Assembly (NCBI RefSeq): GCF_030295405.1
Contig: NZ_AP027080.1
Span: forward strand, 1,984,001-2,048,000
Source: Mesoterricola silvestris
GTDB lineage: Bacteria; Acidobacteriota; Holophagae; Holophagales; Holophagaceae
Length of the DNA: 64,000 nt
Direction of reading: 5' to 3'
This document shows, in pieces, positions 44,247 to 48,288 of the stretch; the first letter of the stretch is position 1, and every line of letters begins with the position of its first letter. A program made the position numbers and the translations under genes. The notes beneath the pieces were generated by a model. It had not been told where the DNA came from. It saw only the letters and a program-made list of their open reading frames with translations, and searched no databases.

Positions 44247-44978
44247 CTAGAAGACGAGCGGTTCGGGTTCCCCGAAGATGAAGCCCTGGCCCCAGGGGAC
44301 GTCCGCGTCGATGACGGCCTGGAGTTCCTCGGTGGTCTCGATGCCTTCCACGATGTAGCCCACGCGCATGCGTTCGGCGAACCGGGACAGGGCGTTGAGC
44401 AGGGCGGCCTGGTAGGGGCGGCGGTGGATGCCGCGCACGAGGCTCTTGTCCACCTTGAAGAAATCGGGGGAGAGGTGGGCCATGTGGGCCAGGGAGGCGA
44501 TGCCCGAGCCCAGGTCGTCCACGGCGATGCGCACCCCCAGGGCCCGGAGGCGCTTGGAGAAGAACTCCAGCTGGTCGAGGCTGTGGCGGGAATAGCTTTC
44601 GGTGATCTCGAAGACGACCCGGTGGGGGGGGATGGACAGGTTCCAGAGCCAGGGCTCGATCTGGTACCAGAATTCGGGGTGCTCCAGGGTCAGGGGATCC
44701 AGGTTCACGAACAGGAGGTGGTCGGTGATGGGGTGGCGCTCGAGGGTGGTGAAGATGGCCCCCAGGCACAGGAGGTCCAGGCGCACCCGGGATTCCGCCG
44801 AGAGGGAGACGTCCACCAGGAGGTCGCCCACGGTGCGCATGACGCCGGGCTGGGTCTCGAAGCGGGTGAGCACTTCCCGGGCCACCGTGGCCCCGTCCTT
44901 GAGGTCGATGATCGAATGCGTGTAGGTGACCGCGGGACGCCGGAAATCCAGAATGCTCTCGAGTAGGGATTGGTTCAT
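44247..44978 (-). CDS. EAL-domain cyclic-di-GMP phosphodiesterase
   Basis: A 243-aa stand-alone EAL protein with no sensor domain or membrane segment. The signature motif is EVL (AREVLTRFE) instead of EAL, but the catalytic and metal ligands look present: Asn in LLFVNLDP, Glu in VFEITES, the DD pair in AVDDLGSGIASL, Lys in FKVDKSL, Glu in EGIETTEEL and the terminal WGQGFIFGEP. It is likely active, hydrolysing c-di-GMP to pGpG. It is oriented against the dcw genes and sits between mraY and murD. Confidence 0.9.
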   Translation of the reverse strand: MNQSLLESILDFRRPAVTYTHSIIDLKDGATVAREVLTRFETQPGVMRTVGDLLVDVSLSAESRVRLDLLCLGAIFTTLERHPITDHLLFVNLDPLTLEHPEFWYQIEPWLWNLSIPPHRVVFEITESYSRHSLDQLEFFSKRLRALGVRIAVDDLGSGIASLAHMAHLSPDFFKVDKSLVRGIHRRPYQAALLNALSRFAERMRVGYIVEGIETTEELQAVIDADVPWGQGFIFGEPEPLVF

Positions 44979-45050
44979 CCAGCTCCGCCTTGCCGAGGTC
45001 TATTTTCACTTCTTTTGCCGCCGGTGCCAAACTGGAAGAAAGGAGTGGGC

Positions 45051-46403
45051 ATGGGCAGGGTCGTGGTGGTGGGCGCGGGGCGTTCGGGGATGGGGGCTGC
45101 GGAGCACCTGGCGAAGGCGGGCAGGGACGTGGTGGTGACCGAGGGCAAGGCGGGCCCCGACGAGGCCGCTGCCGCTCGTTTGTCTGCTCAGGGCATCCCC
45201 GCCGTGTGGGGCTCCCATCCCATGACCCTGCTGGACGATTGCGAAGAGCTGGTGCTGAGCCCCGGGGTCAGCCCCGCCATCCCCTTCGCCGCGGAGGCCG
45301 CCCGGCGCGGGATCCCGGTCATCGGGGAGCTGGAACTGGCCCACCGGGCCCTGCGGGCCCGCCGGGACGATTCCATGGTCCTGGCCATCACCGGCACCAA
45401 CGGCAAGAGCACCACCACCGATCTCACGGCCCACCTCCTCAAGCAGGCGGGCCTTCCCGCCCGGGCCTGCGGCAACCTGGGCATCCCCCTGGTGGAGGCC
45501 CTGGAGGGGGCCGAGGAGGGCACGCGCTTCGCCCTGGAATGCTCCAGCTACCAGCTGGAGACGGTGCGGGACTTCCACGCCGAAGCCGCGGCCACGCTCA
45601 ATCTCACCCCGGACCACCTGGCCCGCCACGGCACCATGGAGGCCTACCGGGCCGCCAAGGTGCGGATCTTCGGCCACCAGACCCCCCGGGATCTGCGCCT
45701 GACGCCCCTGGCCGACCCCGCCTTCGAGGCCATGGCTCCGGGCGGGGGGCAGTCCGCGCATTTCGGCTGGACGGCCCCCGAGGGCCCCGGAGCCTGGTGC
45801 GATGACCACGGCACCCTCTGGCTGGTGGACGACCACGGCGAGCACCCCCTGGTGCACCGCACGCGCCTGCTGATCCCCGGCGACCACAACGTGGAGAACG
45901 CCCTGGCCGCCGCGGTGCTGGCCGGACACGGCGGCGCCGACCTGGACGCCATCCGGGAAGGGCTGCGCACCTATCCCGGGCTCGCCCACCGCATCGCCCT
46001 CTGCGGGGAGCGGGGCGGAATCAAGGCCTACAACGACTCCAAGGGCACCAACGTGGACGCCACCCTCATCGCCGCGCGGGCCCTGCCGGGGCCCCTGGTG
46101 CTGCTCCTGGGGGGCCAGGACAAGGGGAGCAGCTACGCCCCCCTGCGCGAGGCGCTCGCGGGCAAGCTGCGGTCCCTGGTGTTCCTGGGCGAAGCCATTC
46201 CCCAGCTGGAACGGGACCTGGGCGACCTGCCCCACGTGGCCGTCCAGCCCTTCGACGACGCCGTCGCCGCCGCGCTGGGCCTGGCCCGGGAGGGGGACCA
46301 GGTGCTCCTGAGCCCGGCCTGCGCCAGCTTCGACCAGTTCCGGAACTTCGAGGAGCGGGGGGAGCACTTCGAGGCGCTGATCCGCGACTGGGCCAAGGCC
46401 TGA
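45051..46403 (+). CDS. murD: UDP-MurNAc-L-Ala:D-Glu ligase MurD
   Basis: A 450-aa Mur ligase adding D-glutamate. Rossmann start VVVVGAGRSGMGAAEHL, LSPGVSPAIPF, ATP loop ITGTNGKSTTTDLT near residue 115, ECSSYQLETV, NLTPDHLARHG, GDHNVENALAA, NDSKGTNVDAT and SPACASFDQF are all standard MurD. The ATG at 45051 has AGGAG 5 nt upstream; longer frames run antisense into the EAL gene and were rejected. One nucleotide separates its stop from the next gene. Confidence 0.96.
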   Translation: MGRVVVVGAGRSGMGAAEHLAKAGRDVVVTEGKAGPDEAAAARLSAQGIPAVWGSHPMTLLDDCEELVLSPGVSPAIPFAAEAARRGIPVIGELELAHRALRARRDDSMVLAITGTNGKSTTTDLTAHLLKQAGLPARACGNLGIPLVEALEGAEEGTRFALECSSYQLETVRDFHAEAAATLNLTPDHLARHGTMEAYRAAKVRIFGHQTPRDLRLTPLADPAFEAMAPGGGQSAHFGWTAPEGPGAWCDDHGTLWLVDDHGEHPLVHRTRLLIPGDHNVENALAAAVLAGHGGADLDAIREGLRTYPGLAHRIALCGERGGIKAYNDSKGTNVDATLIAARALPGPLVLLLGGQDKGSSYAPLREALAGKLRSLVFLGEAIPQLERDLGDLPHVAVQPFDDAVAAALGLAREGDQVLLSPACASFDQFRNFEERGEHFEALIRDWAKA

Positions 46404-46404
46404 C

Positions 46405-48288
46405 ATGGACGCCGCGGCCGAAGTGCGGTACCTCTCCCTGGCCGGCCCCGGGCCCCGGGCCGGGCGGATCCTCGTGGTGGACGCGGACCGCCAGCGCCTC
46501 GGCCTCCTGGAGGAGGGCCGCCTGAAGGCGGAGTACCGCATCTCCACGGGCGCCGCGGGCATCGGCGGCGAGGACGGCTCCTTCCGCACGCCTCCGGGCT
46601 GGCACCGCATCCACGCCCGCATCGGGGAAGGGGCCCCCGCCGGCGCCGTCTTCCGGGAGCGGGTGGCCACCGGCGCCGTCTGGGAGGGCGAACCCCTGGG
46701 GGAGGACCTGATCCTCGGCCGGATCCTCACCCTGGACGGCCTGGAGCCGGGGGTGAACCGGGGCCCCGGCGTGGATTCCCTGCAGCGCACCATCTACATC
46801 CACGGCACGAACCAGCCCGGCCTCCTGGGGACCCCGGCCTCCCACGGGTGCGTGCGCATGGCCTGCGAGGACGTGCTGGAGCTCTTCGACCGGGTGCGGG
46901 AGGGGGACCGGGTGCTCATCGCCCGGGGCCCCATGGGCCGCCTCCATTTCGCCGGGGCCGGGGGCAGCGGCATGAGCGCCCTGGCCCAGTTCGCGGTGCG
47001 GGAGGGGCCCGTGAGCGGCAGCGACCGCGGCTTCGACCAGGGGCGCAACCCCGGGGGCCGGGCCCTGCTGGAGCAGGCCGGCGTGGCCATCCTCCCCCAG
47101 GACGGCTCCGGGGTCCAGGGCGCCGCGGCGGTGGTGTACTCCACCGCCGTGGAGGAGGAGGTGCCCGATATCCGGGAGGCGCGCCGCCTGGGGATCCCCC
47201 TCCTCCACCGGTCCGAACTGCTGGCCCACTACGTGGGGCGGTACCGGACCCTGGCCTTCTCGGGCACCAGCGGCAAGTCCACGTCGGTGGCCATGGCCTT
47301 CGAGATCCTGCGCGGGGCGGGCCGCGACCCCTCCGTCATCACCGGCGGCGACCTGCGCGCCCTGCGGGCCCAGGGGCTCTTGGGCAACGCCTGGGCCGGG
47401 GGCTCGGACCTGCTGGTGATCGAGGCCGACGAGAGCGACGGATCCCTGGTGCGGTACCGCCCCGCCGTGGGCGTCGTCCTGAACCTGCAGAAGGACCACA
47501 AGGCCATGGAGGAGGTGGCGGCCATGTTCGCCACCTTCAGGGCCCAGGCGCGGGAGGCCTTCTGCGTGGGGGACGCCCCGAACCTGGAGGCGCTGGCCAA
47601 GGACGCCCTGGTGTTCGGGCCGGGGTCCCGGGCGGACCTCCGGTGCGAGAACGTGGAGGAGGGCCCGGAGGGGTGCGCCTTCACGGTGCGGGGCGTGCGG
47701 TTCCACGTGCCCGTCCCCGGGCTGCACAACGTGGAGAACGCCCTGGCCGCCATCGCCGGGTGCTTCTCCGTGGGCGTGCCGCTGCCGGCCATGGCCGCGC
47801 CGCTGGCGGGCTTCCAGGGCGTCGCCCGGCGTTTCCAGAGCCTGGGCACGGCCCGGGGCGTGGAGGTGGTGGACGATTTCGCCCACAACCCCGCCAAGAT
47901 CGCCGCCTCCCTTCGCACCGCGCGCCACCGCGGGACCCGCGTGCTGGCGGTGTTCCAGCCCCATGGCTTCGGCCCCCTGCGCTTCCTCCGCAGGGAGTTC
48001 GTGGAGGCCTTCGCCCAGGGCCTGCGCCCCGGGGACCGGTTCTGGATGCTGGACGTCTTCTACGCCGGCGGCACCGTCACCCGGGACATCTCCTCGGAGG
48101 ATGTGGTGGCCGATATCCGCGCCCAGGGGGCCCCGGCCCTCCATGCCCCCTCCCGGGAGGGCCTCGTGGCGACCCTCGCGGCCGAGGCCCGGCCCGGGGA
48201 TATCGTCCTGATCATGGGCGCTCGCGACCCCTCGCTCACGGACCTGGCCCAGGCCGTGCTGGCGGCGCTCCGGAGCCCTGGGCCCTGA
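46405..48288 (+). CDS. Fusion protein: YkuD L,D-transpeptidase/carboxypeptidase domain + MurC-type Mur ligase
   Basis: A 627-aa protein with two unrelated peptidoglycan domains. Residues 1-175 form a YkuD (ErfK/YbiS/YcfS/YnhG) domain: RILVVDADRQRLGLLEEGRL, STGAAGIGGEDGSFRTPPGW, and the catalytic signature His133 (IYIHGTNQPG) to SHGC-VRM with Cys149. Residues 178-627 are a MurC-like ligase: HFAGAGGSGMSALA, ATP loop SGTSGKSTSVAM, VIEADESDGSLV, VPGLHNVENALAAIA, ARRFQSLG, VVDDFAHNPAKI and VLAVFQPHGFGPLRF. There is no signal peptide or membrane segment, so the YkuD domain should be cytoplasmic. Several ligase positions differ from standard MurC (Ser for His in the ATP loop, HNP for HHP). AAGG precedes the ATG; the gene is coupled to murD. 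It could be MurC, or a recycling ligase of Mpl-like role. Confidence 0.92.
   Translation: MDAAAEVRYLSLAGPGPRAGRILVVDADRQRLGLLEEGRLKAEYRISTGAAGIGGEDGSFRTPPGWHRIHARIGEGAPAGAVFRERVATGAVWEGEPLGEDLILGRILTLDGLEPGVNRGPGVDSLQRTIYIHGTNQPGLLGTPASHGCVRMACEDVLELFDRVREGDRVLIARGPMGRLHFAGAGGSGMSALAQFAVREGPVSGSDRGFDQGRNPGGRALLEQAGVAILPQDGSGVQGAAAVVYSTAVEEEVPDIREARRLGIPLLHRSELLAHYVGRYRTLAFSGTSGKSTSVAMAFEILRGAGRDPSVITGGDLRALRAQGLLGNAWAGGSDLLVIEADESDGSLVRYRPAVGVVLNLQKDHKAMEEVAAMFATFRAQAREAFCVGDAPNLEALAKDALVFGPGSRADLRCENVEEGPEGCAFTVRGVRFHVPVPGLHNVENALAAIAGCFSVGVPLPAMAAPLAGFQGVARRFQSLGTARGVEVVDDFAHNPAKIAASLRTARHRGTRVLAVFQPHGFGPLRFLRREFVEAFAQGLRPGDRFWMLDVFYAGGTVTRDISSEDVVADIRAQGAPALHAPSREGLVATLAAEARPGDIVLIMGARDPSLTDLAQAVLAALRSPGP

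Follow-up and report, generated by a model that had tools for sequence, protein, structure and literature searches.

A YkuD–Mur ligase fusion in Mesoterricola silvestris as a candidate enzyme of peptidoglycan-peptide salvage

Described relatives and the fused gene

ElsL (NF040925) of Acinetobacter baumannii has been shown experimentally to be a cytoplasmic L,D-carboxypeptidase, a leaderless YkuD protein encoded by a separate gene that provides the step upstream of the ligase Mpl (PMC8649774). YkfC-type NlpC/P60 proteins, which are unrelated to YkuD, act on murein tripeptides and tetrapeptides in the free state and cleave γ-D-Glu–meso-diaminopimelic acid (PMC9928106). Fused cell-wall enzymes are also on record, namely the MurC-Ddl fusion (NF011171 type) and Caulobacter AmiR (PMC13046382), which have other partner domains and concern other steps. 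We analyzed a 64,000-nucleotide stretch of the Mesoterricola silvestris genome (Holophagaceae, Acidobacteriota; contig NZ_AP027080.1, positions 1,984,001–2,048,000; hereafter, the window), in which a single gene encodes an ElsL-like YkuD domain and, fused to it, a complete Mur ligase. An earlier note on this DNA had proposed that the two halves trim a recovered peptide and then religate it. No paper naming a YkuD–Mur ligase fusion was found, most subscription papers lying outside the search, and the fusion is apparently undescribed in the literature searched.

The gene occupies positions 46405–48288 (+ strand) as an intact open reading frame of 627 amino acids with an ATG start. A YkuD domain (PF03734; 80.9 bits, gathering score 23.4) spans residues 21–172 (46465–46920, +), and all three Mur ligase domains follow within residues 180–607 (46942–48225, +), comprising an N-terminal UDP-binding domain, a central ATPase domain with GTSGKST at residues 287–293 and a C-terminal acceptor domain. 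The protein has neither a signal peptide nor a membrane helix, and its N-terminus is not hydrophobic (maximum KD19 hydropathy 0.64 over the first 40 windows). The GC content at third codon positions is 0.97 in the YkuD half and in the ligase half alike, which, together with the single intact frame, indicates that coding continues in one frame through both halves. The open reading frame, the Pfam matches and the hydropathy agree with the earlier description of one 627-codon frame holding a complete YkuD domain and a full MurC-like ligase without signal peptide or helix, and confirm a genuine fused gene.

Many Holophagaceae relatives carry the same fusion, and scanning public genomes revealed it also in Hyphomicrobiales (Methyloceanibacter and its kin) and Candidatus Eisenbacteria. 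We compared 28 fusions from these groups, which represent three phyla. His133, Ser146, Gly148, Cys149 and Arg151 of the YkuD half are invariant in all 28, as are Lys291, Glu340, Asp342, His365, Arg475, Arg476, Asp490, Asp491, His494, Asn495, Lys498, Gln518, Pro519, His520, Gly521 and Arg607 of the ligase half. The catalytic residues previously named, His133 and Ser146-His-Gly-Cys149, are present as described, although His147 of the SHGC motif is variable (Cys in Methyloceanibacter copy L043). Identity to the nearest copy is 82% for the YkuD half and 85% for the ligase half, and these similar values suggest that neither half is decaying. In the trees of the ligase half and of the YkuD half, the fused forms constitute one clade each, a pattern compatible with the two halves having been joined once and having travelled together since, by transfer or deep inheritance between phyla.

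Such a frame might have arisen from a false join in the assembly or from loss of the stop codon between two genes, and a few draft copies are indeed broken by frameshifts (L058, L059 and G147). However, this artefact is ruled out for all practical purposes by the 28 copies in three phyla and by the fused state in complete single-contig genomes (G000, G001, G004, G008 and G013). The three broken copies were also the candidates for natural two-gene versions; they look like frameshifted drafts, and we claim none.

Among NCBIfam models, the YkuD half scores best with ElsL, as the earlier note had anticipated, although its 127–131 bits remain below the curated cut-off of 270. No protein exceeded that cut-off in any genome searched, and the other YkuD proteins of these genomes reached only ~20–39 bits. 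The fusion shares with ElsL a leaderless YkuD domain with catalytic His, Cys and Arg; unlike ElsL, it is joined to a ligase. Sequence matching of this half to solved structures returned only weak, motif-level YkuD matches.

A ligase clade distinct from MurC and Mpl

The ligase half best matches the NCBIfam model murC (TIGR01082) at 288–289 bits, under the cut-off of 335, and scores 98–100 bits with the Mpl model (TIGR01081), whose cut-off is 388.7. The motif (S/T)AFFDKRSK, characteristic of Mpl (PMC3060825), is absent after EADEYD and replaced by EADESDGSLVRYRP; the EPxSNTM motif of Mpl is also lacking. In a tree of 75 ligase sequences, Mpl, canonical MurC and the fusion-type ligases formed three clades, the last with a support of 100/99. 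Score, motif and tree thus reject membership in either Mpl or MurC, and sequence comparison strongly supports placing the ligase half in a third branch that has attracted little notice. The suspected distinctness from standard MurC therefore stands, but the ligase is not an Mpl.

In the AlphaFold model of the fusion (mean predicted local distance difference test score 94), the ligase matched HiMurC with bound product (1p3d) at Z 46.2, with a root-mean-square deviation of 1.9 over 432 residues, and matched Mpl (3hn7, PaMpl) at Z 31. Domain order, fold and the residues for ATP and uridine diphosphate N-acetylmuramic acid (UDP-MurNAc), including the invariant Lys291, Glu340 and His365, are those of MurC. 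The acceptor site differs. In HiMurC, His376, Arg377, Arg380, Tyr346 and His348 are believed to bind the incoming amino acid (Das et al., PMC3060825). The fusion keeps His348 and His376, whereas Tyr346 is replaced by Phe, Arg377 by Gly and Arg380 by Pro, so that the L-Ala-binding set of MurC is incomplete. The two lost arginines correspond to Gly521 and Pro524 of QPHGFGPLRF (residues 518–527; 47956–47985, +; residue list from PMC3060825). In DDFAHNPAK (residues 490–498; 47872–47898, +), Asn495 and Lys498 stand for His and Glu of MurC, respectively, and GARDPSL (residues 605–611; 48217–48237, +) carries Arg607-Asp608, invariant throughout the clade, in place of the GAG(D) of MurC.

These replacements characterize the entire third clade. 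Across 61 of its sequences, we observed Ser289 (His in MurC and Mpl), Asn495 (His), Lys498 (Glu or Ala), Gly/Ala521 (HiMurC Arg377), Pro/Ser524 (Arg380), Gly556 (Glu) and Arg607-Asp608. At the acceptor site, Tyr346 becomes Phe, as in Mpl, Arg377 becomes Gly or Ala, Arg380 becomes Pro or Ser, and the nearby Glu352 becomes Lys. Both L-Ala-binding arginines, which Mpl also lacks, are lost, and an invariant Lys (498) and Arg (607) are gained. Relative to MurC, the fusion is therefore changed at the equivalents of the P-loop His, His349, Arg377, Arg380 and Glu352. GTSGKST and Asn495 of HNP are invariant throughout the clade, in agreement with the earlier remark that the GTSGKS loop and HNP for HHP depart from MurC. 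The enzyme thus has a MurC-like build with a remodelled acceptor pocket, which might accommodate a tripeptide.

Unfused members of the third clade occur in Elusimicrobiota, planctomycetes and others. In five Elusimicrobiota loci (L060–L063 and L068), whose genomes also encode canonical MurC, one gene family lies directly upstream of the unfused ligase. In the three loci scanned, this partner is a YkfC-like C39-SH3-NlpC/P60 protein whose stop codon is next to the ligase start, and the cysteine motif VDCSGL is present in the three checked. That two different murein-peptide enzymes are connected with one ligase clade is, at the sequence level, the strongest indication that this clade deals with murein peptides. 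The NlpC/P60 partner has a signal-like N-terminus and may act in another compartment. At L060:4036-7353, NlpC/P60 and the clade ligase form one 1105-aa frame, whereas relatives have a stop codon next to the start; this may be another fusion or an error of the draft. An unfused clade ligase with 39% identity is also encoded in a further genome from the order to which Methyloceanibacter belongs (L250:4499-5869).

Proposed function and its alternatives

The true MurC was suspected to lie elsewhere in the genome, and a canonical murC was indeed located at G000:C1:1197787 (553 bits, full L-Ala residue set). All ten fusion genomes searched from Hyphomicrobiales and Eisenbacteria likewise encode a canonical MurC, and the copies aligned retain the residues that bind L-Ala. 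The search for mpl proposed in the note yielded nothing over the cut-off in the window's genome and no Mpl-level match in any of 24 fusion genomes (these and the other genome-wide absences rest on profile searches). Six genomes from another family of the same class, which are without the fusion, encode a true Mpl (315–341 bits), and five of the six also a stand-alone ElsL-like YkuD protein. The two activities thus occur as separate genes within the class, as the note had envisaged, but no natural split of the fusion itself was found. The stand-alone ElsL-like proteins have signal-like N-termini in one genus (L149, L151 and L155) and not in its sister genus (L153, L157 and L158); their compartment may switch between genera.

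The sole S66 (LdcA-type) protein of the window's genome bears a twin-arginine-type signal at its start and looks exported, and was rejected as a cytoplasmic LdcA. The fusion is therefore the only cytoplasmic L,D-carboxypeptidase candidate found in this genome; the check for ldcA suggested earlier returned this S66 protein but no cytoplasmic LdcA. Among Eisenbacteria, an S66 peptidase accompanies the unfused ligase in two cases (L066/G055 and L069/G057), and none was found in the four fusion genomes searched. AmpG exceeded the cut-off in 10 of the 11 Holophagaceae and in all six Hyphomicrobiales fusion genomes tested, and was weak or missing in Eisenbacteria; the window's genome has it above the cut-off too, at a site close behind ddl. 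An island elsewhere in the window's genome (L242, G000:C1:2368001-2388000) contains MurQ, a second AmpG-like permease and a BadF-like sugar kinase (the kinase assigned by reading), together with a lipoprotein-like Amidase_2 protein and a Tat-type (twin-arginine) S66 peptidase.

On these grounds, we consider it probable (about 0.6) that the fusion is a cytoplasmic bifunctional enzyme of peptidoglycan-peptide salvage. The YkuD half would trim recovered tetrapeptide to tripeptide, and the ligase half would then attach the free tripeptide to UDP-MurNAc with ATP, the reaction of Mpl, bypassing MurC, MurD and MurE. Coupling of the two steps would prevent ligation of tetrapeptide, which is the toxic event when L,D-carboxypeptidase is lost in Acinetobacter (PMC8649774). 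We infer both substrates, the order of the steps and any channelling between them.

Several observations weigh against this salvage function. The ligase is nearer to MurC than to Mpl in sequence (288 vs 100 bits) and fold (Z 46 vs 31). In gut Elusimicrobiaceae and three planctomycete genomes, the third clade is the only MurC-type ligase, with no canonical MurC found, and at one such sole-ligase Elusimicrobiales locus (L087:3210-9985), the ligase lies behind dapA-asd-dapB and next to murD and murE. Because MurD and MurE need UDP-MurNAc-L-Ala, the clade can probably use L-Ala despite the lost arginines, at least in sole-ligase genomes. The mutual exclusion of Mpl and the fusion tracks deep clades, so that few independent events underlie it. 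No Mpl was found at E ≤ 1e-70 in 121 genomes of Hyphomicrobiales, and replacement of Mpl by the fusion was accordingly rejected for that order, where the fusion appears as a gain in a Mpl-free lineage. No ElsL-type protein was found in the two-ligase Elusimicrobiota. Amidase_2 (AmpD-type) was not seen in 7 of 11 Holophagaceae and 3 of 4 Eisenbacteria fusion genomes, and of the two matches that the window's genome gave, one resembles a lipoprotein; one possibility is that free peptide is released in the periplasm and taken up by a peptide transporter. Since E. coli Mpl also takes L-Ala when overexpressed (PMC3060825), use of L-Ala by the clade is compatible with a peptide role in the two-enzyme fusion genomes, yet it lowers our confidence. 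Trimming followed by religation, as first proposed, is the reading best supported by the sequences, with the amendment that an Mpl-like step would be performed by a ligase that is not Mpl.

The ligase half might instead be an alternative MurC that adds L-Ala to UDP-MurNAc, while the fused carboxypeptidase serves another purpose, either cutting tetrapeptide for use elsewhere or regulating the supply of precursors. This would account for MurC being the best family and fold match, for the sole-ligase genomes and the locus beside diaminopimelate-synthesis genes, murD and murE, and for the position of the fusion just after murD in the division and cell wall (dcw) run of the window's genus. However, we consider it unlikely, given that canonical MurC accompanies the fusion in all genomes searched for it, that the clade lacks Arg377 and Arg380, that the fusion lies far from murD in the other single-contig Holophagaceae and that an L,D-carboxypeptidase partner makes little sense for an L-Ala ligase. 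A ligase of relaxed specificity or for a different acceptor, such as the dipeptide L-Ala-γ-D-Glu, longer murein peptides or another amino acid, is rather less probable still. Its pocket resembles neither MurC nor Mpl, and Mpl itself accepts several peptides (PMC3060825), but the fused partner in three phyla is of the L,D-carboxypeptidase type that converts tetrapeptide to tripeptide, and the Elusimicrobiota NlpC/P60 protein, with its signal-like N-terminus, may act in another compartment. Finally, YkuD proteins are mostly transpeptidases, the ElsL score is far under the cut-off (131 vs 270) and signal-like N-termini occur on several of the stand-alone relatives within the same class, all of which would suit a YkuD half that performs L,D-transpeptidase-type exchange or serves merely for binding or regulation. 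A leaderless domain fused to an ATP-dependent cytoplasmic ligase, with invariant catalytic His, Ser, Gly, Cys and Arg, makes such a role very improbable.

Gene surroundings and biological meaning

In the window, the fusion ends a run of cell-wall genes composed of rsmH, an ftsI-like penicillin-binding protein gene, murE, murF, mraY and murD. The last of these (44970–46403, +; TIGR01087, 367 bits) has its stop one base before the fusion ATG. Family profiles detected no ftsW, murG or canonical murC in the run, as the earlier note had reported for ftsW and murG at the place where murC would be expected. An EAL-domain protein gene on the opposite strand (44247–44978, −) breaks the run between mraY and murD. 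No conserved recycling genes adjoining the fusion were found; its neighbours are lineage-specific, being, for example, cobalamin-type genes (assigned by reading) in Hyphomicrobiales.

A broader proposal, which we hold only tentatively and at somewhat under even odds as a whole, is that the third clade is a UDP-MurNAc ligase family evolved for murein-peptide salvage. It would have been tied twice to a peptide-cutting partner, as a fused ElsL-type L,D-carboxypeptidase and as a coupled YkfC-like NlpC/P60 protein, carried as a one-gene module across three phyla into Mpl-free lineages, and broad enough in specificity to take over from MurC altogether in gut Elusimicrobiaceae and in some planctomycetes.

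Many bacteria that have AmpG and lack LdcA and Mpl are assumed to degrade recovered stem peptides to amino acids, as argued for Caulobacter (PMC13046382). If the salvage function is true, one gene would supply both missing steps, and re-use of tripeptide would be wider than searches for Mpl suggest, alphaproteobacteria included. The third clade offers a natural test of how Mur ligases choose between amino acid and peptide, and the fused form would be a clean system in which to ask why trimming must precede ligation.
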